Position numbers and translations under genes: made by a program. Shown one piece after another: positions 1,878-25,040 of a stretch of 64,000 bases of DNA (position 1 is its first letter; each line of letters starts with the position of its first letter). The stretch spans positions 165,181,713 through 165,245,712 of the forward strand of contig NC_083337.1 of assembly GCF_019175385.1 (NCBI RefSeq), written 5' to 3'. The notes under the pieces are model-generated. The model saw only the letters and a list, made by a program, of their open reading frames with translations, did no database searches and was not told where the DNA came from. Source of the DNA: Lycium barbarum (lineage: Eukaryota; Streptophyta; Magnoliopsida; Solanales; Solanaceae).

Positions 1878-1886
1878 ATTAAGGTA
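1878..1886. repeat. 9-bp target site duplication, left copy of the MULE
   Basis: ATTAAGGTA directly precedes the left end of the 18-kb element and recurs identically just after its right end at 19956. Nine base pairs is the standard duplication length for Mutator-like elements, so the two copies fix the borders. Confidence 0.85.
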
Positions 1887-1967
1887 GGGCAATTGGCGCG
1901 AATGCCCCTCTTTTGGGCTAGTCTTTAGATTTTGCCCCTCAAAATGGTGGTCTTTAATTATTGCCCT
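1887..1967 (+). repeat. MULE left terminal inverted repeat
   Basis: GGGCAATTGGCGCGAATGCC, then CTTTTGGGCTAGTCTTTAGA, TTTTGCCCCTC, TGGTCTTTAATTATTGCCCTTCC. Pairs with 19867-19955. The same GCGCGAA..GTCTTTAATTTTTGCCCC theme recurs in the small elements at 22621, 23163 and 61014, so this is a family terminus. Confidence 0.85.
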
Positions 1968-2039
1968 TCCGAGCAAAACTAACATAGTAAAAAGACATTA
2001 CTACCCCTAACCGTTACATATAAAACACGACAAAAATCG

Positions 2040-2153
2040 TTATTCTCAAATCCAGCCCAACTTCGTTCCCAAACCAGATTTTCTCAATTATTCAAATCGT
2101 TGTTTCAAGCCAGATTTCTCCATTGATTTTGCTGCTACAACGTCAGTAAAAGG
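2040..2153 (+). promoter_or_regulatory. Probable 5' leader and first splice donor of the transposase transcript
   Basis: A pyrimidine-rich leader-like stretch inside the left terminus ends in AG|GTACAAAATC, a plausible donor. An acceptor such as TTTATGCAG at 3977-3985, just before the transposase ATG, would remove the repeat-rich 2154-3985 as a 5' UTR intron. The mirror arrangement at the right end (AG|GTACGAATTTGG on the minus strand near 19720) supports this. Inference only. Confidence 0.35.
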
Positions 2154-2449
2154 TACAAAATCTTAATTCAACTCAATTTAACGATTTTATTGAGTTTAGA
2201 TTGTTAATATTTGAAAAAGATCATCTTCTACGACCTGATTATTAAGAAACAGATGACATACAACTCAGATTGAACATTACGCATGATAAAATTATTCAGC
2301 AAAATAGAATCGATTGGATTTAATGCTTTGTTCTGATTTTAATTACTTTATACCTTAATTAAATTAGTATACAGTGCTTATTTACTTGAAATTGTAATTA
2401 TAGTAAATTCAATTTAAATCAGGCAATGCTTATCGATTTAAACTTGAAT

Positions 2450-3240
2450 TAAGGTAAACTGTGTGCAAATTTAGAACAAGTATGCCGGAGGAGGCAAAAG
2501 TTCAATTTACAAAAGAGTAGAGTATGCCGTTAACGACAATGTTTTGAACCAATTTCATAACAAGTATGCCGGAGAAGGCAAAAGTTCTGGTTTATGTAGA
2601 AGTATAAATTAGTCCAGTTGCGTCAATCCTCTAATTGGAATAACTGTTGCAGGCATTTGATTTAAATTGGATGAAGGTAGAGGAGGTTTTCATTTTTTTT
2701 TAAACCAAAAACAGTTACTGCATTATCATCAGCAAAAAAAAAAATTGATTCTGTCGGAGGAGGCAAAAGTTCAATTTACAAAAGAGTAAAGTATGCCGTT
2801 AACGGCAATGTTTTGAACCAATTTCATAACAAGTATGCCGGAGAAGGCAAAAGTTATGGTTTATGTAGAAGTATAAATTAGTCCAGTTGCGTCAATCCTC
2901 TAAATTGGAATAACTGTTGCAGACATTTAATTTAAATTGGATGAAGGTAGAGGAGGTTTTCATTTTTTTTTATTTTTTTTAACCAAAAACAATTACTGCA
3001 TTATCATCAGCAAAACAAAAAGTGCTTATGTCGGAGGAGGCAAAAGTTCAATTTACAGGAGTAGAGTATGCCGGAGAAGGCAAAAGTACAATTTACAAAG
3101 TAGTAGAGTATGCCGTTACTGGCAAAGTTCTGAACAAACTTCTGAACAAGTATGCCGTAGAAGGCAATACTTCTCTTTAGAAGCCATTAAAGTAAAATTC
3201 TACAAACCTAAAGAAACTTACACTTCATTAACATATATTT
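2450..3240 (+). repeat. About 269-bp tandem duplication containing dyad motifs
   Basis: The block from TATGCCGGAGGAGGCAAAAG through GAAGGTAGAGGAGGTTTTCA at 2481-2740 is repeated nearly unchanged at 2750-3010, with a third partial copy to about 3180. Each copy carries three TATGCC dyads (at 2481, 2523 and 2565 in the first). A diverged relative of the second half lies at 3650-3740 and another at 15660-15760 near the other end of the MULE. Short ORFs here are repeat read-through. Confidence 0.8.
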
Positions 3241-4005
3241 AAACATACAAAACATAAAATCCGAACTTCATAAGTACCAAACTACCATCATCAGTTCTAA
3301 TTTCACGTGTACCCATTGCAAATTGCCCCATCGTCAACTTGGCCAGTGTGCTGGAATAACCTCTGCCTTACAAATCGTAATTCTCTTCGCAGATCATCAT
3401 TTTCTCTACTTAGAGCACCGTAAAGAGCCCTCAGAAAATCTATATCTCTTTTGATATCAGCAATTTCATGAGTAATTTGCAAATTTGCAATATTAGGATG
3501 GATTTAGTTATGAGGATGGGCATGTTCATGTGCTTGCCCGTGGCCACCATTAACATGTACAATATGTTGATTTTGGTTCATTTTGTATGTGATTATATCT
3601 GGTTTTCAGAAGTAAAGTGTTTTTTTTTCCTTCTTCAAAGTTGTGTTGGTTTATATAGAAGTATAAATTAGTCCATTTTCAATTGGAATATATGTTGCAT
3701 GGATTTGATTTAAATTGGATAAAGACAGAGGAGGTTTTTCAGTTTCATGAAAATAACTGTTGCAATTTCATTGGAATAACTGTTGCAGAAACAGTTACTC
3801 CGTTTTTAAATAATGCTGGTAGCGGCAGAACTTCTGTTTACAAAATCGTTGAGTATGCTGTTTCAGGCATACTTCATGACTTTACATACAAAGCCTGCTG
3901 GGAAGGGCAAAACTTAAATTTTCAAAACTAACAACTTAAATACATTTCATTTTGGTTTTTTCTCAAGTGAATCTCTCTTTATGCAGGAAGTTTAACAAAA
4001 AAAAA
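3241..4005. other. Transposase upstream region, no gene
   Basis: Spacer or 5' UTR intron of the transposase. It holds a diverged copy of the 80-bp block seen in the tandem repeats (3650-3740), several TAACTGTTGC words, and two weak dyads near 3853 and 3895. TTTATGCAG at 3977-3985 is a likely splice acceptor 20 bases before the chosen ATG. Confidence 0.5.
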
Positions 4006-6942
4006 ATGACACTAAGATGCATTTACGTAGCCTTCAACGGCAAATGGGACGCCGCCTACAATTATGTTAATCATGAAACCAAGCTAATACTTGTCAATGA
4101 TGGTGTAAATTTTCAACAATTCACTCAACAAATATTTGCGGGGCATACACAACATACTCAGCAAAAAGAGGCCAACATATGGTTTGACACCAGTGAGAAA
4201 ACATCCAAAGGGATGCGTGTAACAAACGACATTGATCTTCACACTTGCTTGTACCTGCTCAACAACAATGACAACTTCAGGAATTCCCGTTTCATATTAG
4301 AGTTCGATTCAGCTGATGCGGAGGACAACCCATTACAAGAACATCATAATGAATCTATCCTAATGACAGAAGGACAAACCATAGAGGAAATTGACAGACA
4401 ACTCTGCATTGCTTATGAAGAAGACATGTCTGAAGTTGGATTGGATGACAAACAACACAGCCCTATTGGACATAACCTTGGGATTCCACTTGAGCAGAGC
4501 GAGATAGTAACTCCTAACCAGACACCTCAGCAGCTATAATGGCAACCACCAAACATTGAGCAAGTTGTAAACAATGACCTTTCTCAGCATCCAACTTCAA
4601 TGAATGTTGTATCACTTACTCCGAGCATGACAGTTGAAGAGACACAAACACAGCCATGCAACAAAACAAAGACACTAAAAAGGAAGAGGATACAAAATGA
4701 TACACAAATTTTGACACCTAGTGCATCGATTGATCAAATAGAAGTTGGCATTTTATTCAAAGACAAAGATACCATGAAAAAGTGCATGAATAACATTGCA
4801 ATTACTCGTCATCAACAGTACAAGGTAGAAAAGTCATGCACGCAACGGTATTACATCAGATGTGTTGATCCAACCTGCATTTGGCGTTTCCGCAGTTCAA
4901 GGTTCAGAGGATCAGAACTTTTCAAAGTAGTTAACTTTGAAAAGAGACATAGTTTTTCAATAAATTTCATCACCTCTGACATGAGGAATGCAACTTCAAA
5001 AGTCATAGCGGAATACATTACAGACCTAGTACGCCATACACTACAAGAGATAACACCCAAATTTGTCATTGAAGAAATGAGAAGCAGATATGGCTTGCAC
5101 ATTGGTTACCACAAAGCATGGCGTTCCCTCCAACACGCTTATAATGTCATAAGAGGAAGCCCAGAAAATAACTACACACTTCTACCGCAATATCTTCACA
5201 TGATGAAATTAAGAAATCCTGGAACAGTTGCTAACATCAAATGGACCGCTGACAATAAGTTTAAATATGCTTTTTTCGCGTATGGAGCATCAATTGAGGG
5301 TTGGAAACATTGCAGAGCAGTAATGATGGTGGATGCAACCTTCTTGAAATCAAAATACCGCGGTGTGCTCATGATAGCAGTAGCAAAAGATGGAAACAAC
5401 AGCATATTTCCTCTCGCATTTGGTATTGCTGACTATGAGAATAATGAATCCTACAGGTGGTTCTTCAAACACGTGAAAAAGGTGTTTGGCACGCGCAAAG
5501 ACCTATCAATTCTTTCCGATCGCCACTCGTCAATTGCAACTGCAATCAAAGAGCTGTATCCAGATACCCAGCATGGAATATGCATCTACCACATGGAGAA
5601 GAACTTGCAGAAATATTTCCCATCCGAAGCGATCCTATCACTGTTCTACAATGCAGCAACTACCTACAAACAGGCAGAGTTTCGTACCTATATGTCACAG
5701 ATACAACAAATCGACCCAAAAGCTGCAGAATACATAGAAGAAGAACCACCGGAAAGATGGGCACGTTTATTCCACACCAACAGGCGTTACAACATGCTCA
5801 CAACAAACAATGTCGAGACAATGAATTCTGTATTGAGGAAAGCAAGGGAGTTGCCAATAATGACATATATTGATTACATCTAGAACAAGCTGCAAAATTG
5901 GTTTTACCAGAGAAAATTGGACGCAACAGGACCGTCCCATGACCTGACATGTTGGGCTGAAAAGATTCTGCTTGAAAAGATAAGTAGAGGCTTCACAATG
6001 AAAGTAAGTACATTTTACCAACACACACTTCAATATTAGTTTGGTGAGAAATGCATAGTTTAATTTTAACCAAACACAAAAGTTATGCTGGATAAAGGAA
6101 AAACTATCACCCTATTTTTATACTTCGTTCTGCCGGAAGGGGCAGAAACTTATATTAACTAGCATGGAATTATGCCGGTGAGGGCATAACTATTACACTG
6201 TTTTTATGCTCACAATGAAAGTAAGTAGATTTTACCAACACACACTTCAATCTTAGTTTTATGAGCAATGTATAGTTTAAAATTAACCAAACACAAAAGT
6301 TATGCTGGACAAAGGAACAACTATGACCCTATTTTATACTTAGTTCTGCCGGAAGGGGCAGAATCTTATTTTCATTGTACAGGAAGTATGCCGGAAAGGG
6401 CATAACTCTCATATAATCTGAAAATTGCCACAAAAAATATCACTCATTTATATTGTCAATTTCCACAGGTAGAAAACATGACTCCCGTCAAATTTGTTGT
6501 GAAAGATGAAGGATATCAATACAATGTAGACCTGAAGAATATGACTTGTGAGTGCTTGGAGTTCCAAACTGATGAGTTACCGTGCACACATGCCATGGCA
6601 GTTTTAGACAAAAGAAGTTTGCCAAAATCTACATACTATGCGGACTGGTTCAAGAAACAAGCCTGCCAAGAGATATACAAAGGTGAAATACTATCAGTTG
6701 GAAATCAAGACTCATGGATTATTCCACAAAATATTATGGATATTAAAATAACGCCGCCTGATGTTAAAATAAGACCTGGAAGAAAACAAACAAAAAGATA
6801 TCGCCCAAGAAGAAAATCAACAAAGTACACATATAGATGTGGTAGATGCAAGTTCTTTGGACACACTAGGGCAACCTGTAACCACAATCCAGCTCTCAAT
6901 CCATATTCAAGAAGATACAGGAAGAGGAAATTGTCATCCTAA
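4006..6942 (+). pseudogene. MuDR/MULE transposase with two in-frame stops
   Basis: Cuts and inserts Mutator-like DNA. Two exons, 4006-6003 and 6469-6942 (AAA|GTAAGT, TTCCACAG|GTA). Order: N-terminal region starting MTLRCIYVAFNGKWDA; a MuDR DNA-binding domain from about 4740 with CVDPTCIWRF; the MULE DDE core with Asp in MMVDATFLK (5332), Asp in ILSDRHSSI (5518) and Glu in NNVETMN (5815); a SWIM zinc finger CECLEF..PCTHAM; a CX2CX4HX4C knuckle (CGRCKFFGHTRATC); a basic tail. The frame is interrupted by TAA at 4537 and TAG at 5881, with clear coding on both sides; both could be C-to-T changes from CAA and CAG. The ATG at 4006 is preferred over 3952 because an acceptor lies between. Full reading would be about 820 residues. 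Confidence 0.9.
6004..6468 (+). repeat. Transposase intron with internal duplication and dyads
   Basis: The segment at 5996-6190 starting CAATGAAAGTAAGTA is repeated at 6208-6400. Each copy carries TATGCTGG..AAAGG followed by two palindromes (6129 and 6171; 6345 and 6387), each pair 42 bp apart. The duplication copies the splice donor, so the intron contains a second GTAAGTA. Confidence 0.75.
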
Positions 6943-7691
6943 CATCACATTCTTATACATGGTTTATATGAATTTATCTTATGTTTCTTGACGCATAACG
7001 CACACTCTTCCTGAAAGAAATGGCAAAACTTTGGTATTACTAAGACTGAGACTTCAAGCATCTTATCACTCATTTATTCTTCTGTCCATTCTTTCTTTTA
7101 TTATTTTCTTTTATTAAGTTGTTATCTTCTTGTTGCTGATAATAAAAGACTATATAATAGCAACAGATAAATGTCCCTACATGAAATCTACAATTCTCTA
7201 CCATAAAACATTGAGGAAAAAGAAAAAAAATCATCAACTTTAATTATCCAGTTTTATAATTTATGCCTCCTCTGACAGGTATAATAGTTTTTGCCGGGGA
7301 AAATGGCAAAAAGAAATTGGTATCTCAAAGACTACATCCTGGTAAGTTTAATAAATGTGTGCCTTGCGACATAACAATATTCCTTCTCTATGTTGTTTTC
7401 AAGTTTTACACTTATGCCGGAACTGGCATGTCTTCCGCTTACAAAATAAATAAGTATGCTGTTAGGGGCATACTTATGTGCTTTGTTGTTTATAAAATAT
7501 TTTAAAATGATGAAAAATTGGAAAAAACATTCAGCACAACACAATTAACATTAAGTAAAATATTTCATTCATTCATAGTAAAATTTCATTCATACAAAGT
7601 TTGGAGAGCAACAAAAAAAAAAAAAAAAAAAAAACAAACATAGACTAAAAATAAAAATTCATTCATACTAAAACAAAAATTATGAGCAGAT
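6943..7691. other. Spacer between convergent transposase and B3 genes
   Basis: No gene. Holds dyads at 7292 (weak), 7412 and 7455, the last two 43 bp apart, and an A-run at 7613-7634. It probably includes both 3' ends. Confidence 0.5.
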
Positions 7692-8099
7692 CTAGTCTAT
7701 AACTACAATCTCCTTCTTCTTCTTAACAATAATCCCTATGCCAGCATTGCACTCAACAAGCCTAAAGCATAGAGTATCTCCTTCCTGCAGCCCATTGGTA
7801 TCAACAAAGTCTTTCCACCCCTGGCAAAGGCGCCGATATGCACCAACTTTGTAAGTCATCTTGTAGTAATGCCGACCATAAAGCACATAGGCTTCACATT
7901 TAGAGTTCGGAAGACTGTCTGAGATGTCATTTGGAAGGATCTGCAACGAAATAAACACACAAAATTATTACTAAAAATAAGGATGAATGGAATAAAAACC
8001 CAGATGAAAACAAAAAAGTTTCTTGATAACATTTACACATACAAAGTCATCGTTAAGGACATAGGACCTGCTTAACCTTTTCTCGAAATTCACATCCAT
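7692..8099 (-). CDS. Small B3-domain protein gene inside the MULE
   Basis: Two exons, 8099-8043 and 7940-7692 (TTT|GTATGTG, TTGCAG|ATCC), giving 101 aa. It reads as a single B3-like domain: FEKRLSRSYVLNDDF, then ILPNDISDSLP, a strand YYKMTYKVG, and the family signature GWKDFVDTNGLQEGDTLCFR near the C-terminus. B3 domains are plant-specific DNA-binding folds; the closest style is the REM group. Nothing else is in the protein, so it would act as a bare DNA-binding domain. The frame is intact as read. It lies tail-to-tail with the transposase. A captured host gene is the simplest explanation, but a regular MULE accessory gene is possible. An in-frame upstream reading reaches 8234 without family resemblance, so the 8099 ATG is used. 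Confidence 0.7.
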
Positions 8100-8204
8100 T
8101 GTTATGTGGCAAAAGTTGTATAAGAAAGAGATAAAATGTGAGTGAATGTAAAAATGGTCTAATTTATAGTGTAAAATCATAAGTATAGTCAAAATACATT
8201 TAAT

Positions 8205-9720
8205 TAAAGTTAATAAATGCGTTTGACTGCCCAAATAGTTGGCGTCTCAACTAATCCCAATAAAATGCATTCTGACTGGTCAAAAAAGTTAAAAGGTTTT
8301 GTCTTTGTTGCTGATTGTGGCAAGTTCTCTGAACTTAATTTCTGCCCGAAAGGGCGAAACTTCTATTCATAAAATGACAAAGTATGCCGACCCCGGCAAA
8401 CTCCTATTACATAACCAGCATAAAGTTGTGATGCAAAGGGCATAACTTTGGTTTTCAACAAAATAACAGCATTACGTGACAAATAATCCCCAATAAATGC
8501 ATTTTGGCTGGTCAATAACTTCAAAGGGTTTGTCTTTGTTGCTGGTTTTGGCAACTTTTCTGAACTTAAATTATGCCGTAATGGGCAGAAATTCTATTTA
8601 CAAAATGAGAAACTATGCCGACCCCGACAAAATTCTATTACACAACCACCATGAAGTTGTGATGGAAAGGGCATAACTTGGATTTTCAACAAAATAACAG
8701 CTTTTATGAACAGATAAGTTGAGATTAAAAATGAATACCATCAAATTACAAAGGGGCTTAAAGTTGAAATTTATAACACAAACAAATTATACAAACTTAA
8801 TTTCTGCCCGAAAGGGCGGAACTTCTATTCATAAAATGACAAAGTATGCCGACCCCGGCAAACTCCTATTACATAACCAGCATAAAGTTGTGATGCAAAG
8901 GGCATACCTTTGGTTTTCAACAAAATAACAGCATTACGTGACAAATAATCCCCAATAAATGCATTTTGGCTGGTCAATAACTTCAAAGGGTTTGTCTTTG
9001 TTGCTGGTTTTGGCAACTTTTTTGAACTTAAATTATGCCGTAATGGGCAGAAATTCTATTTACAAAATGAGAATCTATACCGACCCCGGCAAAATTCTAT
9101 TACACAACCACCATGAAGTTGTTATGAAAAGGGCATAACTTGGATTTTCAACAAAATAACAGCTTTTATGAACATATAAGTTGAGATTAAAAATGAATAC
9201 CATCAAATTACAAAGGGGCTTAAAGTTGAAATTTATAACACAAACTTAATTTCTGCCGGAATGGGCGGAACTTCTATTCATAAAATGACAAAGTATGCTG
9301 ACCCCGGCAAACTCCTATTACATAACCAGCATAAGGTTGTGATGCAAAGGGCATAACTTTGGTTTTCAACAAAATAACAGCTTTACGTGACAAATAATCC
9401 CCAATAAATGCATTTTGACTGGTCAATAACTTCAAAGGGTTTGTCTTTGTTGCTGGTTTTGGCAACTTTTTTGAACTTAAATTATGCCGTAATGGGCAGA
9501 AATTCTATTTACAAAATGAGAAACTAAGCCGACCCCGGCAAAATTCTATTACACAACCACCATGAAGTTGTGATGGAAAGGGCATAACTTGGATTTTCAA
9601 CAAAATAACAGCTTTTATGACACAGATAAGTTGAGATTAAAATGAACACCATCAAATTACAAAGGGGCTTAAAGTTGAAATTTATAACACAAACAAACTA
9701 TACAATCTTATAACATTTAC
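8205..9720. repeat. Tandem array of about 455-bp units, three copies
   Basis: Units repeat at about 8340, 8803 and 9250, with near-identical segments TGCCGACCCCGGCAAACTCC, GTTGTGATG..AAAGGGCATA and CAAAGGGTTTGTCTTTGTTG. Each unit has an internal half-repeat holding a second set of dyads. The identical 63-residue minus-strand ORFs in each copy have no coding character and are repeat shadows. Array length may vary between alleles. Confidence 0.85.
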
Positions 9721-12101
9721 AAAAAACACAAAAGGCGCACGAAAAAAAAATTACATGGTGCAAAAATAACTAAAACAAACTATTTTTTTCCTTTCTTCAC
9801 AGATCTAGCTCGACTAAAACAAACTATATTTTTGCTTTCTTCACAGATCTTGCTCTCTTTTTCATCTCATAATCACACTCCATATTGTTATGCTCATGAT
9901 AATCACTTCCAGCTGTATCTGGTGGCGTGTCATAACCCTTTTTCAGCTTATCTTTCCCATGACAAACCAAATTGATTGACCACTCTTTCATGTAGTCCAT
10001 CAAAACAGAACCATCCCAATCAGCAGGATTTTCACCACTCATCAGCATATCAGCAAACTTGATCAAAAAACGACCACAATTATAATCTCTGAAAGTCATA
10101 AAAGAGAGATGTTTTTGAACAACAGAAAACCAAAAACAATAAACAAAAAACAATGGAAAAAGCTAAAAAAGATAAGAATAAAGCGTACGATCCTTGCTTT
10201 GGATAGGCAGCCCAGGTATATGTCAGATTACTGAAGTTATTGAATGATGGTCTGAATAATTGAAAATCATTGACCTCCAACAACTTAGGGATCATACCAC
10301 AGTAGGCCTCGAGATTGCAAACCAAACGATCATCATTATGATTGAGTGAGTTATAAACTACCAATTTATGCTCATCAATCATAAAAACAGCAAGTACATA
10401 GTGAGAAATTGCTTTAGGATCATCAGATCCTGGGCGAATAGGAATTAATACCCTGTCGACATTCTCCCACGATATACCACATTTTCCTCTTTGCCCATAC
10501 ACAATATTACTCAGCAAAAATGCATCATCACAACCGCCAGCATACCAGTGGTAATTAACCGGGTCTTGGTAGTATCTATTGATGTCAAATTGCACAAGCT
10601 GATCAAACATCATATCTACGGTTGTGTACTTAACAGCATTGGCAGCTGGAGGATGATACATCATTTTCTTCCTCAAATAATATAGCATCACATCAATATG
10701 CTGTGTTAAGGAAAAAAAAATTAGCGATTCAACAATAAAGAAAAAAAAAATGCAAAAAGCAATAACTAATAGAAAAATAAGAAAAGAAAAAGTAAAAGAC
10801 AATCACGAACCTCATCATTAAGCGCATAGACATCATGGTACAGCTCCAAAAAAAACATCCTATATTTTGGCTCAACATCACCCAACTTATAAACTTCACT
10901 CAGTTGGTTCAACTTTCCAGGATACATTACCTCATCTTCTTCCCTGATTAAAGAAAAGGGAACAAAAATTAGAAAAATACAAACAGAAGTTTGGTTCACA
11001 GAAAGGAAATTTTATGAATAAGGTTTGCCGGAAGAGGCAAACCTTATGCTTGAAAAAGGGAAAAGTATGTTGGAAGGGGCAAGATTTGGGTTTCAAAAAG
11101 TAAAAGTATGCCGGAGTGGGCAGAAAATAACTTTTAAGAAAGCACACAATAACTAAAAACTTACCCAGTAGGTTGAAATCTACTTGCTGGAAGATTTTGA
11201 GGATTGATAAATTTTTTCCAAAAGTTCACGACAATTTTGCTTTTGAAGTAATGGAATGGGCACATCCTTCTATACTGTTCATCCCAGTCACTTTCGTCCT
11301 TCCGTGACTCAAAAGGAAGATCGTTTCGTCCAGAATATAGCATCCATCCGGGTGCCGGGGAATCACCCACTACTTTCCTTTTCCTCTGGCACCTTGTCTT
11401 CAAGGAAGATAGCACTTCCGCCACTTCAACAACAGGTTCTTCTTCAGCAATAGGAGGGGTTTGACTAACAGTACTCTCTTTTGACAGCGGAAGAAGCGAC
11501 ATTTACAATATCTTCAAAGGACACATATCGAAAATTGTCCTCCATTCCTTGAGAGTTCTCACCCTTTCCATCAACAACAGCGGACTCCCTTGGAGTACTG
11601 ACTTGAACCGGGTCTGCATTGGCTGGTTCGCTCCTCAATGGCTCAACCATATTAATAGGCTCGGGCAGGTCTGCATTGGCTGGTTCACTCCTCAATGGCT
11701 CAACTGCATTAATAGGCTCGGGCATAACCCCAATATGAGGAACAACATCATGTTCATCACCCTCGTTAGAAACTTGAGCTTCAGGTGTTTCACGTCTTAT
11801 ATGCTCAAGATTTTCAAGTGTTGTTTGCTCAAAATTTTGAGCCATATCTCCTTTTGGTGGAGATACAATGGATTCTTCGCAATTGGCGTCACCAAACTGT
11901 TCAACGCCCAATTGTTCCTCCTCAACAACCTACATAAAGTAACAAATTAAGAAACACAACATCCGTCATCAAAGCAAAAATATTAAAATATTAAAATAAA
12001 AAATAAACAAATTCTGCAAGTGGTAAAAGATTGAAAATTATGTCGAAACAAGAAGAAATTAGGTTCACAAAAAGGAAAATTTATGAACAAATTTCGAAAA
12101 A

Positions 12102-12420
12102 TATGCCGGAAGGGGCAAACCTTATGCTTGAAAAAGAAAAAAGTATGCCGGAAGGGGCAAGATTTAAGTTTCAAAAAGTAAAAGTATGCCGGAGACGGCA
12201 GAAAATAACTTTCCAAAAGAGATGAGTATGCCGGAGAAGGCAGAACATGAGTTTCCATATAAAATGTGAAAGCATGCCGGAAGGGGCAAGAGCTAAGTTC
12301 AAAAACTAAAAGTATGCCAGTGTAGGCAGAAATATAACTTTGCGAAAAAAGATAGTATGACGGAGTAGAGAGAAAATGAGTTTGCAATAAAAGGGTTGAT
12401 TATGCCAGGAGGGGCAACAC
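12102..12420. repeat. Phased dyad array A
   Basis: Eight consecutive copies of the TATGCCGG..GGCA dyad or close variants, starting at 12102, 12144, 12185, 12227, 12273, 12313, 12356 and 12401: steps of 42, 41, 42, 46, 40, 43 and 45 bp. The sequence between copies is AT-rich and less conserved. It lies in an intron of the Ulp1 gene. Confidence 0.85.
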
Positions 12421-12886
12421 TATCATTTGCATAAGCAAAACAGAAAAGAGCAAACAAAGTGTTAAAAATAACAAAGTATAGAATGTAAATTTACCAAAGG
12501 CAATTCAGCCTCAACATTTCCAGTTGCATTTCCTTCAGCTTGAGATACAATGGATTCATCATGATGAGGCGACACCAACGTATCACCCTCTTCTATCCTA
12601 TCATCTCTGGCAGGAGATAAATCTCGTTCGAGATGATCAGAAACCATCACATCTTCATCTTGAATTTGCTCAAGATTTTCAAGTATATGTTCTTTTGGTG
12701 GAGAAACGTTGGATTCTTCACGATTGGCGTCACCAAACAGTTCAATGGCAAATTGTTCCTCCACAACAACCTACATAAAGTAACAAATTAAGAAACACAA
12801 CATCCATCATCGAAACAAAAATATTAAAATAAAAAATTAACAAATTCTGAAAGTGGTAAAAGATTTATGAACAAGTTTTGAAAATA

Positions 12887-13160
12887 TATGCCGGAAGGGG
12901 TAAACCTTATGCTTGAAAAAGGGAAAAGTATGCCGGAAGGGGCAAGATTTAAGTTTCAAAAAGTAAAAGTATGCCGGAGTGGGCAGAAAATAACTTTCCA
13001 AAAGAGATGAGTATGCTGGAGGAGGCAGAACATGAGTTTGCATATAAAATGTGAAAGTATGCCAGTGTAGGCAGAAATATAACTTTGTGAAAAAGGTAGT
13101 ATGCCGGAGTAGGCAGAACATGAGTTGCAATAAAAAAAGGGATTATGCCAGGACGGGCAA
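12887..13160. repeat. Phased dyad array B
   Basis: Seven copies at 12887, 12929, 12970, 13012, 13058, 13100 and 13144: steps of 42, 41, 42, 46, 42 and 44 bp. It is the duplicated sister of the array at 12102. Confidence 0.85.
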
Positions 13161-15169
13161 AACTATCATTTGCATATGGGGAAACAAAAAAGAGCACACA
13201 AAGTGTCAACTACCAGAAAAGTGTGCCAGACAACATAGATTTAGAAAACAACAAAGTATAAATGTAAAATTACCGAAGGCAATTCAGCCTCAACATTTTC
13301 GGTTGCATTTAGAGATTAAACTTGTTCAACATCTGTCTCCATGGGACATGTCACATTTGCTTGGCCTTCTCCAAAAACATCTTCAAATGCCACATTTAGA
13401 GAAGCATTTGCATCTTGTAATGTTTTGCGTAATTTTCTTCTCTTGTAAAACAGGATTTTGCCTCCAACTCTGTGTCATCAACGGTTCTTTCACTAGAACC
13501 AGCTTGCACATCTTCCATCTGAATTTCTTGATTACTTTCACCCTCAACATTAGACAAATCAACACCGTTGCCCCCCTCATCTCCGGTGGCAGTTTCAGAT
13601 TCCCAAAATGCCTGTTCAAGATCAGCAACATCTTCCTCAACATCAGACTGCACCGATCTTCTTCGTTGCCCAACGGAAGATTGATCAACATTTTTAGGAG
13701 GCATGGCTTGTTTAGTTTTCCTTTTAGCAGCAGCACTTTTACGAACATATCTTATGCTCTTGCGCCTACCCTTTTCAACATGACGAGGAGAATCAACATG
13801 TCGACGAACATTTTCAGCATGAGAAGCAGTTTGGGATTCAAAATTTAACCCTGCTTTTTGCAAAGCAGAAATCAGCTGATCCATCCGGGCCTTCTCCTTC
13901 TGTTGATTATTCAAACTCCTATCCAATTTAACATCACAAACATTTTCCAGGAACTGTGAATATAAACAAATACAGCAAAGTGTTAAACTCAAGAGAAAAA
14001 AAAAAGGAACAAAACTTTTACAAGAAAAACAGAGAGGACCCGTGAGAAATACCTCAATGCGACGCTCTAGAGAAGAGCTTTCACTGGATTTGCCAGCAAT
14101 ATTGGCATCTTCAGATTCACTTTCATCAGCACTTGAATTGTCCGGAGATTCATCAACCACCCCTTTACCTCGCTATTGAAATAAAATCCATACAACAATA
14201 ATAATAAATAATGACATCAAAATAGAAAAAGAAAAACCACATTAAAAGTTAAACGAAAAGTAAAGGGCAATAAACACCATTACCTTTCCACTCGTGTACT
14301 CTTCAGATACAAGCAATTTCTTCACCTCATTGAAATGTGGAGATTTCTTGCTGACATACGACAACATCAGAGGTTCACGACAATTGCCAATAATATCAAC
14401 ATATTGTTTGCGATAGTCATTGAACCTAGACCAAACCCAAACACTAAAGCCAAAAACAAAACCAACAACACCATAATCAATGGTATGTCTGTTTGTCCCT
14501 TGGTAATATATTGATTTGAAACACCTCAGGAGTTCGGCAAAACACAAAGACCCCCAATTAAACTGCTCAAACAATTCAGTGTCCTCTATGTATACAATAT
14601 GCTGCCACAACACCTTTTTATCAATTCTACCGCCCAATAAAACACGACCAAGAATGTATACCTCTGCTAGCATCACCGCATCAAGGTCATCTTCAAACTA
14701 CATTTTCAGCACTCATCACATTCTTCAAAATCCTCATTTCCAAATTCCTTTTACCATCTCCAACACCAAAATATCTTCTCAAAAGACGACTGCCATTGGT
14801 TTTGTTATATTTAGCATAGAAAGATCTAGGAGGTTCAGTAATTGATAACCCAATGACTCTCTTAAATGATTGCTCTGTAAATGTCACAAGTTTATCTTGT
14901 ATATTAAAATGCATTTCATTGGTTTCAGAACACTGAACTTCCGACAACAACATAAAATTCACCAAGATACCCGGCATTTTTATATTATGTAATTCCATAA
15001 ATTTCCCAAAAGGACGATTCTTCAAAATTACCAACTGTTCTTTTGTAAGAAATTTCTCAACAAATTTAACAAACTTTTCATCCCCTCGCCATACAGCACT
15101 GATGCATATGTCCGTCCACTCTTCCGGAGGAATATAATAGTCAGCAACTTGTCCAAATTGTCGTCTCAT

Positions 15170-16498
15170 GATTTAGCATACTGACATGAGCAAAACATAA
15201 AATTCAATCAGGAAAAAAAAGGAAAAAAAAACACATAAAAAACATTACCAACAAAAATACATTACCAAAATGCATTACCAAAAACGTAAAAAGGAAAAAA
15301 AAATAAATAGAAAACCCTATTCAAATAAAATACAGACACAAACAATTGAAGGAAATAACTTATCAACAAGTAATGAAATAGTAACTAATAACTTACAGAT
15401 GAAATTGAAACCCCACTAAGAGAAATCAATGAATGATAAAGATGATATAGGAAATGTGACAAAGCAACTGCCTTCTTCAACTTTAAAGTGAACAAACGAA
15501 TATAAAAAGTAAAATACAGGAAGAGCGGGCAATATATATTGAACAATTTTTTTTTTTTAAAACTGCACACGTGCTAACCACGTGACAAACTTATGCCGAA
15601 AGCGGCATAATATAAGTGTGTTAGGAATAAAAGTTTGCCGTTGTAGGCATAACTGTGTGGCTTTATATAGAAGTTCAAATTAGTGCATTTTAAATTGGAA
15701 TAACTGTTGAAACGATTAGATTTCAATTGAATGAGGATACAGGGAGTTTGAACTGAGGTAACTGTTAGTGAAATTTGAATTGAGGTAACTGTTGTAATTA
15801 TTGACAAAAATACAAAGAGTTTCAGTTTTTTCTCTTTTTTTTTTTTTTTAAAAAAAAAGAAAAGAATTAATACATTTTCAATTGGAAGTAAATGTAGAAA
15901 TACCTATTAGAGATATTGGGAATAAGAGTCACTTTTTCATTATCTTTTTTTATTTCTAGCGGAAAAAAAAACTGTTACTACGAATTTAGAAGTATGCCGG
16001 AAGGGGCATAATTTCTGTTCCCAACGGGTAAACTTATGCCGGAGGCGGCAAGATTAAAATTATTGATTTTTGTTTTTAAAGCAAAAACAGTTACTAAAAT
16101 TTAAATTGGAGTAACTGTCGCAACTATTGACAAAAATACAAAGAATTTTTCAGTTTTTCTTTCCATTTTTTTAAAAAAACAAAATAATTAATACATTAAT
16201 TGGAAGTAACTGTCGCACTTATTGGAGATGTTTTGGAACAAGAGTCACTTTTTAATTATCTTTTTTATTTTTAGGAAAAACAGTTACTTCCATCTTAGAA
16301 GTATGCCGGAAAGGGCAGAACATCTATTGAGAAAATGGCAAAAGTATGCCCGTTAAGGCAGACTACAGAACACAGTTTGAAAAAGTGAAACTTCATTATA
16401 TGTACAGAAATGAAAGACCAATTTACATATACATCATTCGAAAAAGGGAGAAACACAATAACATAACACTTGCCGTAAATAACAACAAAAAAATCAAT
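15170..16498. other. Spacer between the two DUF1985 genes
   Basis: No coding region. Dyad pairs at 15592/15634, 15993/16035 and 16302/16345 (42, 42 and 43 bp apart), including TATGCCGAAAGCGGCATA. AACAGTTAC and GTAACTGT words recur between 15690 and 16290, and an 80-bp block matching 2600-2690 and 3650-3740 lies at 15660-15760. Confidence 0.6.
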
Positions 16499-18999
16499 TC
16501 ACTTTCCTAACTCTTCTGCAGTACAGTATATATCTTCAGCAGCAGAACTCAACCGTTTCTCAACTGGAGTACTGCTTGGTGTAAGCAAATACCAATTAGG
16601 ATAACCATCATCCTCTTTGTTTCTATCTTCGCATCTCGGACGTTTTCTAGTACCATCTTCTTCTTTGTTTCCATCTTCGCATCTTGGACGTTTTCTACTA
16701 TTTTCAACAGCAGCTGCTACTTCATTTACATTTTGTGATGCTTCATTAGAAGAAAACAAAATATCTCTGCGTGGAAAAGCATCATTAATTGCAGCAATTT
16801 CATTAAGTGCTTCTTTTTTTGCGCGGTCTTTATTTTCTTTCACATATTCCTTTTCAAACTGAGAAATAGTTTGAGTTTTATCAGACAATTGACTTGATGA
16901 AGAAACAACAGCATCACAGAGCATATCGAGCATGGGAGATGTCTCATTTTTTGTAGACCTTGCTTTACAAGATTTCTTTTCGCTATGCAGTCGAACTAAA
17001 CTTTCAACACAATGCATCACATAATCAAATTTACTTTCCAAACTGTCAAGTCTACTTTCTAAACAAGTTCTTTTAGCACTTTCAGAAGCTGCTACACCTG
17101 ACTTTGTTTCATCATGTACACGAACTAAGCTATCCACAGCATTAATCGCGCCAACAAAATTTTTATCCAATTCTTCGAAACGGCTATCCAAAGACTACAA
17201 AAAAACGAAAAAAAAAAAATTAAACAAAGAAGAAAATAAAATGAGAATAAACAAAAACAACAAATGCAGCATGCAAAGTATACATATCATATTAACAAAC
17301 TCAAAAATAAAAAAATAAAAGGCCATACCTTTACTTGATTGACAATTGTAGATCGTTCATCATCAAGTTGCTTCTTCACACCAGACAAAACACCCTGTAT
17401 AACAGATCAATAAAACAACACATTACTTTTGATGTCACTAAATTAATGTTGAACAAGTATGCCGGAACCGGCAGAACTGAAGTCTGAAAATGAAAACAGT
17501 TTGCCGGTAGGGGCAGAATTCAAATATGAAAGGAGAACTGTATGCCGGAAGAGGCAGATTTTAAGTTTGCAAAACAAAAAAATATGCCTCAAGAGGCATA
17601 AACTTTCATTTCCAAAACCAAAACAGAGAAGACTGCAAAATGTGTTACCTACAAAAATTAGTCTCAAAATGAGAACAGTATGCCGGTAGGGGCAGAATTG
17701 AAAATATGAAAGGAGAAATGTATGCCGGAAGGGGCAGATTCTACGTTTGCAAAACCAAAAAGTATGGCTCAAGGGGCATAAACTTTAATTTCCATAACCA
17801 AAACTGAAAAGACTACAAAAATGTCTCCTACTAAAATACTATACCACAAAGCCTCTAACTCAGAATTCAGTTAAACAACCAAAAACACAAAAAGCAAAGT
17901 ACAACTTACATCAACTATCTGAGAAGTAACTTCAAATGGCAAAACCGCACGGGAAGAACAAGGGCCTGAATCATCAGGAAATTTAAGTGCAACTGGATAA
18001 TCCAGCATCTCTTGTTCTGTACCAACAACAACAGCATGGACAATAAATTTCTTGAATCTCTATAACACAATATAAACACATCAATTTAGACAAAAACACA
18101 AAAAATAACAAGAGGGAAAAAGAACCAAGAAAAAGAAGCATCAACAAAAGGGGAACACATACTTTTTCAGCATGGAAGAAATTATCAGTAATAACTTTAT
18201 AATCAACTTGCTTTGAAGGACCCCAAGACAACATACGAGGAGACTTCAGACCATGAAAACTTGAAAACCCTCGAAAGATAGGGAAAACCTCCAACAGCCA
18301 CACATTTAAAGCGTAAGGGAAACCACTAATCATATAACGTGTAGATGGCGTGCTCTTGAAAGTCTTCACACAACCACGAATCGACCGTACCAACCAATTA
18401 AAACTAAGAGAACCCCAAGGATAAGACACCCGAAGACTGTCATCGTCAATTATCTTCATTAGATGACCTTTAACAACACATTTCTCGTTACGACCCAACA
18501 AAACCCTCTCCAATATATAGACCTCAGCAAGTCTAACAGGATCACTAGATCTTTCCCAAAAACCACCAGTACGATTACTTGACTTGATCTGTAAAAAACT
18601 CCTGAGATCACACAACCTTATTGTATCCTGATTTGGAAAATAAAGTCTCAACAATCTATTTGGTCTGCTAGACACAACACTAAAATCGCCAACACAAGAA
18701 TCCAACCCAGTAATAAGATGGAAAGACTCGGAATCAAATACACACACGCGATCAAAAATCTTAAACTTTAACACACTATCATTACTAGATGTAAGTTGCG
18801 ATAAGATCAAGCAATGGAAAATATTATCACTCAGGCGGACATCAACCAAATCCATAAACTGTCCAAACACACCCTTTTTCAACAACTCCAATTGAGAGAC
18901 ACTCAAAAAGGACAAAATCAAACTCCGAAAATGAAAATCACCACTCCACATGCCACCTCCTTCAACCCAATGTTTAAACTTAACCAAGGGATGTTCCTC
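16499..18999 (-). CDS. DUF1985-like protein with coiled-coil-like tail, MULE-borne
   Basis: Exons 18999-18163, 18059-17910, 17394-17329 and 17194-16499 join in frame with standard splice sites. The first exon, from EEHPLVKFKHW, aligns with the DUF1985 region of the neighbouring Ulp1 gene (DPVRLAEVYILERVLLG here, DAVMLAEVYILGRVLLG there; YPWGSLSFNWLVRSI against FNWGSLCFAELLRCF). The rest is polar and heptad-like (SLDSRFEELDKNF, LESRLDSLESKFDYV) with a duplicated basic motif RKRPRCED that could be a nuclear signal. No protease domain follows. The start is uncertain: the first exon begins after an acceptor at 19000, so the ATG lies further upstream. Function unknown. Confidence 0.65.
17458..17780. 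repeat. Phased dyad array C, duplicated
   Basis: Copies at 17458, 17500, 17541 and 17583 (steps 42, 41, 42), then at 17679, 17721 and 17763 (42, 42). The two groups are copies of one block; compare TGAAAACAGTTTGCCGGTAG with TGAGAACAGTATGCCGGTAG. It sits in an intron of the DUF1985 gene. Confidence 0.85.
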
Positions 19000-19866
19000 C
19001 TATAAAAGAAAAATTAATGTCAACAGAATCCAAGAGTTTAGATAAGAATAAACCAAAAATGAGAATGAAAATAATTAACATATACCATAATAAAAAATCA
19101 ACCCCTAGACTGGTACACAAATACCTGCATAATAGAAGAAAGAACCAAAACACATAAGATTGCATAAAAGGCCAACATTATTAACAAAACAACACCAAAA
19201 CACATAAAGATTGCATAAAAACCAAAATTATTAACAAGACAACACCAAAAAACCAAGACACACATAAATTAACTTAATTCATGAAGTTATGCCGGAACAG
19301 GCATAACTTTATGCCGGAACCGGCATAACTTCAGTTTCAAAAAGCAACAACTCTGCCGGACCCGGCATATGTTGCCTCAGACAAACACATTCTTCACAAA
19401 ACCTAGATTACTAAACAAAAACAACAGCAACAACATAAAACAGCTGTTCACAGACAAAACTTCAAAGATTCAACAAAGAGAAAACCAAAACGCATATCAA
19501 AATCAACTAAAACATATTACAACATTCATAATACGACATTCAAAAAACCAGAATATATACATGGGGAACGAAACTAGAGTTCAAAAAATCATACAGACAC
19601 TGTAACAAAAACACTATAATTTTAAATAAAAAAGGATCAATTAAATATAAAAAACGATGAAGACAAAGATATCAATTCAACATAAAAACAAATATTGAAA
19701 CGAGCAAAATATCCAAATTCGTACCTAAATTTTAGAACAGATAAGACAGACACAAAACAGATGAGGAACGAAGAAGCAAAAAAAGAAAAGAAAAGGGCAA
19801 ATGACGAAATAGAAAGGGTTTTAATGGGGTAAGAGTAATTTCGTCAAAAAATATTCATTAAACAGG
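19000..19866 (-). other. 5' region of the right-hand MULE gene
   Basis: No convincing exon. The three dyads at 19288, 19310 and 19352 are the most symmetric of all, with steps of 22 and 42 bp; TATGCCGGAACCGGCATA at 19310 is a perfect palindrome. AG|GTACGAATTTGG near 19720 on the minus strand is a possible leader splice donor that would pair with the acceptor at 19000. Confidence 0.5.
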
Positions 19867-19955
19867 CGGCAAGGGCAAAAATTAAAGAAGGCATAAATGA
19901 AGGGCAAAATATAAAGACCAGCCCAAAAGAAGGGCACTCCGCGCAAAAAAAAAAG
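19867..19955 (-). repeat. MULE right terminal inverted repeat
   Basis: In reverse complement it reads GCGCGGAGTGCCCTTCTTTT, GGGCTGGTCTTTATATTTTG, then CCCTTC. It matches 1887-1967 with scattered differences and has an A-run (T-run in reverse complement) at the tip. Confidence 0.85.
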
Positions 19956-19964
19956 ATTAAGGTA
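19956..19964. repeat. 9-bp target site duplication, right copy of the MULE
   Basis: ATTAAGGTA, identical to 1878-1886. The empty site would read GGCA-ATTAAGGTA-ACCTC. Confidence 0.85.
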
Positions 19965-22574: not shown

Positions 22575-22620
22575 CTATTCTCCCGCTATGCTATTAGCCT
22601 TAGCCCAAAGTCTTTTAGTC

Positions 22621-23162
22621 GGGCCTTTTTTGCGCAAATTGTCTATATAAAATGGTCTTTGATTTTTGCCCCTCAAATTGCTGGTCTTTAATGTTTGTCA
22701 TTGCTTCTCATTTAATGAAAAATTGTGGGCCAGAGTACCCTTATTCGCTGGTCTACGAAATCATAGATTCTGGGTTTGATCCTCAGTAAAGGTGATGAAT
22801 TCGTTGTTTTCTTACCCAAAAAAAAAAAAAATCGCAAGGCATAAGTTTAGTGAAATTTTGTCTTGTTCGGCATAAGTTCTGCAGGAATTAAATTATCTGG
22901 CATATGTTGTGTAATAACTAATTCTGTCGGCACTAAATAACTAATTAGCCAAAAAACTTAATTCCTATAGAACTTATGCGGGACAAGGCAAAGGTTCTAT
23001 ACCTTGCAAAATTAGGTCATAAATAAGGGTAGATCGATTTTTTTATTATTATTTTTTTGACCACTTTTTGTTGCTTAAATTGTCTTAGGACAAAAATTAA
23101 AGACCATTTGATGAGCAAAAGTTAAATACCACCCCAAGATAGGGCATTTGTGCGAATGACCC
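22621..23162. mobile_element. MULE-like MITE A
   Basis: Left end GGGCCTTTTTTGCGCAAATT then GGTCTTTGATTTTTGCCCCT; the right end in reverse complement shows GCACAAATGCCCTATCTTGG and GGTATTTAACTTTTGC. Same terminal theme as the 18-kb MULE, without coding. It also has dispersed GGCATAAGTT words. Borders are approximate. Confidence 0.55.
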
Positions 23163-23652
23163 TTAGGCAGGTCCTAAAAAAGGACAATCTGCAGGAATGG
23201 CCTTCGTTGGGGGTGGTCTTTAACTTTTGTCCCTCAAATTGGTGGTCTTTAATTTTTTTCCTTCGCTTAATACCTCAAGGTTCTGGGTTCGAACCCAGTC
23301 TCAATAAAAAAAATAAAAATTCGCAAGACATAAGTTTAAGGCATGCTTCTACTCAAAATTAGGCCTTAAGGTAGACCTGGCCTTATGGCAGAGGTTTGCA
23401 AAATTTCAGCAAAGTAATTTTTTTCCCTTAAGGAAGAGTTTGAAACCCAACTTAAGACATAAGGCATAAGTTTGAAATCCAACTTAAGGCATAGGTCCAA
23501 CTTATGCCTTGCGAATCCTAACTTATGCTTTGTTATTTTTTTTAATTTTTAACTGAGCGGGAGTTCAAACCCGAAACAAAAAGTTTTGCTATTTGAGGCG
23601 CAAAAATTAAAGACCAATCCTTTTGAAGGACATTTCGCGCAAAAAAAGCCTA
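23163..23652. mobile_element. MULE-like MITE B
   Basis: Left GGTGGTCTTTAACTTTTGTC; the right end in reverse complement is GCGCGAAATGTCCTTCAAAA then GGTCTTTAATTTTTGC. Both arms contain a TTCGAACCC or TTCAAACCC box next to the TIR. Adjoins MITE A, so one may have inserted beside or into the other. Exact border unclear. Confidence 0.55.
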
Positions 23653-23975
23653 AAAAATTCAAAACCCGAGTTTGCAATCGGATACAATGCTCTGACTATC
23701 TAGCTGCTTTCCAATTGGTACGGCGAATCAAGGATATTCCAACCCTCAGAATGCACATAATCTGTTCGATGATTTGTTTCAAAGAGCCCTCAGATTCATA
23801 TACCCCCTTTTAATTGCTCTTTCTCTGTTTGTATTTAACTAAATCTTTGAGTGGGTTCAATTAACAGCATTCGCAGTCCTTATTTTGTGACTTATTATCA
23901 TTTTTACTCCCTGCTTTACCATAATTGATAAATTTCAATCCTCCTGAGTGACAATTTGTTTGAAGTTTGAAGAAG

Positions 23976-25040
23976 ATGCTTATAAAACGTTTCTTTTCAT
24001 CGTCGTCGTCCGCTTCCCCGAATTTGTTTAAAATAGGAAGCATTTTGAAGCAAGCTAGGACATTTACAGATGCCGATATTCTTGATTATTCTAAGTTGAC
24101 ACACGATGCTAATCCATTGCATTTTGATGCTGAATGCGCCAAGAATGCTGGTTTTGATGACTGCATTGTTCATGGGATGCTTGTTGCTTCCTTATTTCCC
24201 AGGATTTTTGCTACCCATTTTGTAAGTTTTATTAGACTCCTAAATCCTGCCCCTTTAATTTTGATTCAATGACAGGGTAAAGATGTATATAAAAGTCCAA
24301 TTACAGGTAAACCATGTATCGTAAAAGTGGATTATTAATCGGGAAATGATGGTAAATAATCTGTTGCAGTGATTAAGCTATACACCGTTAGTGTATCTAA
24401 TCTAACCAAAACTTCATAATACTTTGCCAAGATACGATACTTTTATAGAATGATAAGATGAATATGATTTTAACACTATCATCAGGTTATTTAAAAGCCA
24501 AGTAGAAGTGTACAATCAGTTAACCTACACACTGCACAGAGAGCTTAACTGATATTCAAACTTTTTGTGTATATAGCGTAAATCTGAATATGATGATATA
24601 TTTCTTAAACTAGCAAAATATGCCATATTGTTGGATGGAGAAGGTGCCATTTAGGTCTAGTTTTATGTTGAACAATTCCTTAGTGTAACTCTAATTCTTG
24701 TTGTTTGGTTACTTCTCCAGCCCGGAGCTATATATGTCTCACAAACCTTGCAATTCAAGTTGCCTGTTTATATAGGAGATGAGATCATTGCTGAGGTACA
24801 AGCAACAAGCATAAGACAAATAAAAAACAAGTACATGTAAGTACCTATTGGCTGATGATTGATATCGACACAAAGTACATAGTTCGTAGCTCCTAATTGC
24901 ATTGCTCTTTGTGGTCCAGCGCAAAACTGTCAACAAAATGTATCAAGCATGACGGTCCTCTGGTAATCGATGGTGAAGCAACAGCAGTTTTACCATCTCT
25001 GGTCATGGAACCACCTCACTTGTCAAGTACTTCCAGCTAA
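23976..25040 (+). CDS. MaoC-type hot-dog dehydratase, probably mitochondrial 3-hydroxyacyl-ACP dehydratase
   Basis: Exons 23976-24221, 24721-24836 and 24920-25040 (TTT|GTAAGT, CTCCAG|CCC, AT|GTAAGT, GTCCAG|CGC), 160 aa. The hydratase-2 motif is present: DANPLHFD, with Asp44 and His49 as the expected catalytic pair, then IVHGMLVASL. The second exon gives a hot-dog strand, GDEIIAEVQATSI. The N-terminus MLIKRFFSSSSSASP is basic and Ser-rich, as in a mitochondrial presequence. In plants a protein of this size and layout dehydrates 3-hydroxyacyl-ACP in mitochondrial fatty acid synthesis. The ATG at 23976 is the first in frame. It faces the chaperonin gene tail-to-tail. A peroxisomal enoyl-CoA hydratase is less likely because no PTS1 is seen. 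Confidence 0.82.

Follow-up and report, generated by a model that had tools for sequence, protein, structure and literature searches.

Rows of a dyadic word at a step near 42 bp in a Mutator-like element of Lycium barbarum, putative landing sites of a VANC-type protein

Introduction

VANC proteins of Arabidopsis and the elements they act on are the closest described counterparts of the system reported here. VANC21, which carries DUF1985 (one of the two domains marked in VANC proteins), binds the word YAGTATTAY, of which the introns and spacers of VANDAL21 (Hiun), a Mutator-like element (MULE), hold many closely set copies, all pointing one way; expression of VANC21 leads to removal of DNA methylation (PMC5735166). 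VANC6 uses different words, AGTTGTCC and AGTTGTAC; VANC words have spread via tandem repeats, and AT9TSD1, which is unrelated to VANDAL but bears VANC6 words, is also affected (PMC5735166). The authors of that study regarded it as enigmatic how a single VANC protein can recognize many kilobases of its element and how this recognition shifted from family to family (PMC5735166). Some VANDAL-clade elements do have terminal inverted repeats (PMC6446971). According to a review, VANDALs include Ulp1-carrying VANC genes, and the eudicot clade of these MULEs has conserved Ulp1 (PMC13317346). Here a stretch of 64,000 nucleotides from Lycium barbarum (contig NC_083337.1, positions 165,181,713 to 165,245,712 of the forward strand; "the window") is described, which contains an 18,069-bp MULE with a DUF1985 gene and 70 copies of a dyadic word, arranged in rows with a step near 42 bp.

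The window element resembles VANDAL21 in being a MULE, in encoding a DUF1985 protein, in its many words of one orientation in introns and spacers, in its tandem repeats, and in a word which differs between related families (PMC5735166). It differs from VANDAL21, as far as the available text of that paper goes, by a dyadic word of about 20 bp instead of 9 bp, by terminal inverted repeats, by rows at a 42-bp step, and by a word common to four short elements with similar ends. The VANC6 words are a parallel insofar as they are a second word for a related protein; they have another sequence, and the part of the paper available mentions neither a dyad nor a fixed step (PMC5735166). Among the titles and abstract openings covered, no VANC-type word or step was found for Solanaceae or Lycium, although the eudicot systems of Sasaki 2022 might report one. 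Neither did the literature covered, part of which was available as excerpts, contain a dyadic word, a fixed four-turn step, or, for this plant group, a word shared by an element and short ones whose ends are similar. On the best reading, the rows would be landing arrays of the VANC type, a known kind, in a dyadic four-turn layout that would be new.

We consider it reasonably probable, by analogy with VANC21, that the 70 dyads are landing sites of the predicted VANC-type DUF1985 protein, the dimers of which would occupy four-turn rows and keep the element and its short relatives unsilenced.

Results and Discussion

The dyadic word and its place in the element

A matrix was built from strict hits of the dyad and applied with a threshold of at least 12 bits, sites being numbered from the T of TGCC. 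Of the 71 plus-strand sites that the scan gave for the window, 70 belong to the element (1887–19955) and one lies elsewhere; first-order Markov resamplings of the element (40 in number) contained 0.175 sites on average and 2 at most. The consensus was GTATGCCGGAAGRGGCANAACTT, with the strongest core TGCCGG-n4-GGCA, preceded by AAGT and trailed by ACTT; sites found by a matrix agree with it by construction, and conservation of the consensus alone proves nothing. Most sites are imperfect dyads, exact TATGCC-n-GGCATA being present only seven times in the window. Sixty-nine of the 70 dyads score higher in the plus orientation and the remaining one (16347) ties, although the genes of the element occupy both strands; an extra dyad, on the minus strand only, lies at 1959 in the left end.

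None of the 70 dyads is located in open reading frames (ORFs) judged coding, which cover 8578 of the 18069 bp. Coding status is our own judgement, backed by homology for the transposase and DUF1985 genes; ORFs of at least 90 amino acids (aa) that overlap rows (e.g., 3659–3931, 11983–12399, 12837–13142, 17443–17784) were counted as noncoding. A dense short word in noncoding DNA, in a single orientation and in tandem repeats, is present in the element, as in VANC-type systems. A first-pass annotation of the same DNA had reported more than 60 short dyads in a MULE and none inside exons, which agrees with these counts, and every position that it named was recovered with a constant offset of 2 bases, due to numbering from the T of TGCC. 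All rows listed below are on the plus strand and come from the matrix scan; for the two within the VANC-like gene, exons placed by tblastn were also used.

2480..3169, plus strand: 10 dyads in three rows (2483–2567, 2752–2836, 3029–3153) upstream of the transposase gene
3811..3912, plus strand: 3 dyads immediately upstream of the transposase frame
6128..6405, plus strand: 4 dyads in two rows, transposase intron
7412..7473, plus strand: 2 dyads between the transposase and B3-like frames
8340..9587, plus strand: 17 dyads, set in repeat blocks of 231 and 462 bp
11023..11125, plus strand: 3 dyads
12101..12419, plus strand: 8 dyads, likely noncoding
12886..13162, plus strand: 7 dyads, likely noncoding
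15591..15652, plus strand: 2 dyads between the two DUF1985 genes
15992..16053, plus strand: 2 dyads
16301..16363, plus strand: 2 dyads
17457..17601, plus strand: 4 dyads within the VANC-like gene, likely intron
17678..17781, plus strand: 3 dyads within the VANC-like gene, likely intron
19287..19370, plus strand: 3 dyads at steps of 22 and 42, upstream of the VANC-like gene

The 42-bp step and the history of the spacers

Forty-eight steps between dyads are of 50 bp or less: 29 of 42 bp, six of 44, four of 41, three of 40, two each of 43 and 46, and one each of 45 and 22. Thus, 35 lie within 1 bp of 42 and 44 within 2 bp (40–44). When the arrays were collapsed to 11 sites, a step of 42 was found at ten of them and of 43 at the remaining one. 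The first-pass annotation had reported a step near 42 bp and a 22-bp pair near 19288/19310 (the single such step, in row 19287–19370), and had named loss of the 42-bp peak on collapsing duplicated blocks as its refutation; step and pair were confirmed, and the step outlasted the collapse. Its further claim that all dyads face the same side of the helix holds within a row; over the gaps of 96–359 bp between rows no common phase was detected (R 0.28, n = 11).

The arrays of the element probably descend from one 42-bp unit, since the identity between spacers of different sites is 0.46 versus 0.29 in shuffled sequences (42-bp spacers only). Tandem copying would hence be part of the cause, and the first-pass argument against simple tandem copying as the whole cause needs amending. 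The indel-to-substitution ratio in 30 copies of the transposase locus was 0.095, and a neutral model with this single ratio, run without the 22-bp step and with divergence from 42-bp spacers alone, predicts equal spacer length in 0.10–0.17 of comparisons and a length within 2 bp in 0.31–0.41, whereas 0.54 and 0.94 were observed. This smaller change in length, and the recurrence of the step where the spacers belong to other elements (see below), suggest a constraint on the step.

In the whole genome (forward strand), ATGCCGG-n4-GGCA pairs with steps of 29–59 bp numbered 2150 (control 1); 1181 of these were exactly 42 bp apart (control 0) and 83 had steps of 29–40. The first 78 distinct pairs listed comprised 44 at 42 bp, 18 at 48, 7 at 41 and 9 others; the 48-bp class has an additional dyad in between, where it was read. 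Ten representative 42-bp spacers, including six window classes, were grouped. Five of the six window classes form one related group, and F2 and F3, both from other elements, form another; 11 of the 12 comparisons between F2/F3 and window classes showed no relation (p above 0.05). Group F4 has steps of 41 and 42, and the single F4 locus read (L051, C1:30865000-30866900) is without window-like MULE ends; a 41-bp step of TGCCGCTTCCGGCA was noted there. Genome-wide there are 402 copies of the perfect form TATGCC-n4-GGCATA (control 15), often as TATGCCTTAAGGCATA, in which the centre is shorter; this makes a third type of dyad (L001–L013). Nine stretches with it each have at least one end-like match scoring at least 58, which is not counted as evidence because there is no background for stretches of 9.9 kb.

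Ends and genes of the element

The element is flanked by a 9-bp target duplication, and its terminal inverted repeats align over about 75 bp. Its main features are:

1878..1886, no strand: left copy of the target-site duplication ATTAAGGTA, 9 bases identical at both flanks
1887..1961, plus strand: left terminal inverted repeat, aligning to the reverse complement of the right end; non-autonomous elements have similar ends
4006..6942, plus strand: MULE transposase gene, exon about 4006–6006, intron, exon about 6466–6942
7692..7964, minus strand: B3-like exon, PF02362, E 1.3e-6, 28.6 bits, slightly under the cut-off of 30.1
9824..10802, minus strand: Ulp1-like reading frames, 40% identical region in a sister element
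14242..15172, minus strand: start of a second DUF1985-related gene, PF09331, E 5.8e-6 and 1.5e-3, both under the bit cut-off
16499..18999, minus strand: VANC-like gene, DUF1985 exon 18163–18999, others about 17898–18059, 17332–17403 and 16499–17194
19881..19955, minus strand: right terminal inverted repeat, pairing with the left end; similar ends in non-autonomous elements
19956..19964, no strand: right copy of the target-site duplication, matching the left flank

The MULE transposase gene, the 9-bp target duplication and the DUF1985 protein are features of VANDAL/VANC-type elements; VANDALs in the narrow sense have no or short degenerate terminal inverted repeats, from which the roughly 75 bp aligned here depart. 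Pfam found MULE, DBD_Tnp_Mut and SWIM domains in the transposase gene, the exons of which were placed by tblastn with P0010, P0011, P0013 and P0020. The window copy has in-frame stops at 4537–4539 and 5881–5883; copy L015 has a longer open frame of 698 aa without internal stops.

In the VANC-like gene, with exons placed by tblastn with P0003, P0004 and P0009, DUF1985 was recognized above the cut-off (PF09331, E 5.7e-11, 43.0 bits; cut-off 35.1), and the best named DUF1985 relatives in the protein database are from Lycium. VANC21 (chain 9lnj) was matched at the same segment (about 176–284) in five sequence searches. The matches are weak: E 0.27 (rank 5) with the window protein, 0.11 (rank 1) with a part of it, 0.029 (rank 1) with P0004, 0.3 (rank 2) with P0003 and 0.021 (rank 5) with alignment A3; unrelated chains stood above VANC21 in three of the five. 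Structure predictions for the DUF1985 exon (mean pLDDT 43 and 39 in two models) were too poor for a comparison of folds.

The second DUF1985-related gene gave 29–31% identity (E 2e-21) by tblastn with P0003. Two diverged DUF1985 genes within one element (14242–15172 and 16499–18999) might recognize different words. The frames at 9824–10802 are presumably Ulp1-like, a label taken from a catalytic motif alone, and Pfam showed no Ulp1 match in them; the second DUF1985 gene may end in them, membership in a single gene being assumed. With these provisos on label and gene structure, the order of a second DUF1985-related gene and then Ulp1-like frames is reminiscent of the Ulp1-carrying VANC genes (Kaonashi, KIU) of eudicot MULEs (PMC13317346).

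Related elements

Five loci were fetched because they hold dyad pairs, a choice which does not give the frequency of dyads among all elements with such ends. Four of them (L048, L049, L050, L052) are non-autonomous MULEs of 677–1234 bp, each of which resembles the window element at its two ends (scores 52–108, against at most 30 in 30 shuffles). The flanking 9-bp duplications are exact in two of them; in the other two, 8 of 9 bases match in A/T-rich DNA, which is attainable by chance. With a relaxed dyad pattern, 30 dyads were found inside the four elements and one outside; each element has at least one 42-bp step, and their spacers are mostly without detectable relation to those of the window. 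In L048 (1402–1518), dyads follow each other at 42 and 48 bp, the 48-bp step enclosing another dyad, in what appears by eye to be part of a large palindrome.

From 4821 first candidates in the genome, 94 transposase matches were scored, and stretches of 4.3 kb around the best 30 of the 94 and of 4.5–5.2 kb around four more diverged ones were examined. At least three dyads were present in 33 of these 34 copies, and 148 of the 184 steps of 60 bp or less are 42 bp, in copies which are homologous and hence not independent; row lengths vary among them. Purifying selection on the dyads was not seen among the 30 recent copies, in which dyads are no better conserved than spacers or other noncoding DNA.

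A sister MULE (L044/L053, C12:38668331-38673531), with transposase DNA 80% identical to that of the window over 2079 bp, carries another word at similar places. Only one weak dyad is present in it; its rows consist of AAACTCTGCC-type half-sites and lie upstream, in the intron and close to the Ulp1-like frames. The half-site ACTCTRCC, picked by eye from the sister, occurs 44 times in 13.2 kb of it versus twice in the window element; ATGCCGG or its complement occurs 29 times in the window element and is absent from the sister. The distances between sister half-sites include 19, 34, 38, 51 and 123 bp, and the 42-bp step is not kept. The word differs between related families, as exemplified by one sister element, much as VANC21 and VANC6 differ in theirs. 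The sister copy seems to be truncated, its likeness to the window element stopping early in L054.

Proposed landing sites of a VANC-type protein and rival explanations

In the proposed mechanism, the predicted DUF1985 protein of the element would bind the dyads as a dimer, and dimers would bind cooperatively along a row, at sites about four helical turns apart. Bound rows could then bring about a loss of DNA methylation, as VANC21 and VANC6 do in Arabidopsis, and the element and its short relatives with similar ends would escape silencing. The 42-bp unit may have spread by tandem copying, its length being held afterwards by the need for register. The first-pass annotation had named silencing escape and rows of protein at about four turns, which belong to the best reading, and had suggested transposase or B3 protein as the binder. 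A VANC-type DUF1985 protein would fit better than these, because the dyads, like the VANC21 sites described in the part of the paper available, are spread through introns and spacers of the element's middle portion (PMC5735166).

Other plant DNA transposons, such as Ac/Ds and En/Spm, have repeated subterminal motifs, to which the dyads can be likened if they are transposase binding sites that aid excision or synapsis. DNA-binding domains in the transposase, and dyads alongside terminal repeats in short non-autonomous elements, would be in accord with this; we regard it as unlikely, as the sites extend beyond the ends throughout the middle of an 18-kb element, including introns, and the sister has a different word in spite of 80% identity of the transposase DNA. 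In En/Spm, the element protein TnpA binds repeated subterminal words and is linked to methylation loss; that element belongs to a different superfamily, and its words are near the ends. Some plant B3 proteins bind inverted half-sites, and a B3-like exon is present in the element; binding by this protein, for regulation of the element's transcription, is decidedly improbable, since there is one exon only, with a match slightly under the cut-off (28.6 vs 30.1 bits), and a homologue search with this short piece (7692–7964) found no relatives.

Passive tandem repeats without function, the spacing of which would be the length of the first duplicated 42-bp unit, could explain the common ancestry of spacers across the element (0.46 vs 0.29) and the lack of conservation of dyads among recent copies. 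They would not account for the place of the dyads outside ORFs judged coding, for the same dyad and step where spacers are mostly without detectable relation to those of the window, for the kept spacer length, or for a different word at similar places in the sister family, and we hold this explanation to be quite unlikely. That the rows serve mainly the host, as palindromic sources of small RNA and targets of RNA-directed methylation, appears highly improbable: noncoding repeats of VANDALs are such targets according to the part of the source available (PMC10398659), yet neither the fixed step nor the keeping of the word across unlike elements would be explained.

Several results weigh against landing sites for a VANC-type protein. 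The 30 recent copies show no conservation of dyads, the overall diversity of which is 0.082, as compared with 0.062 for spacers and 0.056 for other noncoding DNA; at A/T sites, a count which leaves out most loss of methylated C, the values are about equal (0.044, 0.040 and 0.039, respectively). Missing conservation can be expected if most copies decay once inserted, and gives no support. Other steps recur elsewhere in the genome, namely 48 bp (18 of the 78 pairs listed first) and 37 bp, half a turn off. Window class M resembles F3 over the full spacer (0.52, p < 0.001); for the middle 14 bases the identity is 0.29 (p 0.33). The argument from spacer length assumes a single indel ratio; with a true ratio of 0.03 the expectations would rise to 0.44–0.55 for equal length and to 0.65–0.73 within 2 bp, and the argument would be weak. 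The stretches of the sister that were read, with 7 kb between them unread, showed no DUF1985 gene, so that changes of word and protein could not be paired. As regards the likeness to VANC21, four chains outrank it with A3, among them an unrelated leucine-rich-repeat chain with E 1.5e-5, which is why E-values of this size can mislead; VANC21 did not come up at E ≤ 1 with alignment A1, nor at E ≤ 10 with either P0006 or a fragment of the second DUF1985 gene.

A wider notion is offered tentatively, and is rather doubtful: the dyad and its four-turn step could be a portable anti-silencing address, read by a helically registered row of VANC-type dimers and borne by an entire clan of MULEs, autonomous as well as short, with families parting by changes of the half-site while the dyad is kept. 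A long dyadic word at a fixed four-turn step allows a direct test of how VANC recognition works, and short elements in which this word is combined with similar ends would reveal how copies that are not autonomous come to share the protection.

Other observations in the window

At 22600–23620, one or two short MULE remnants are present with end words like those of the window element and a dyad-like site at 22977. A frame at 23964–24272 resembles, by eye, the start of a MaoC/hot-dog hydratase.

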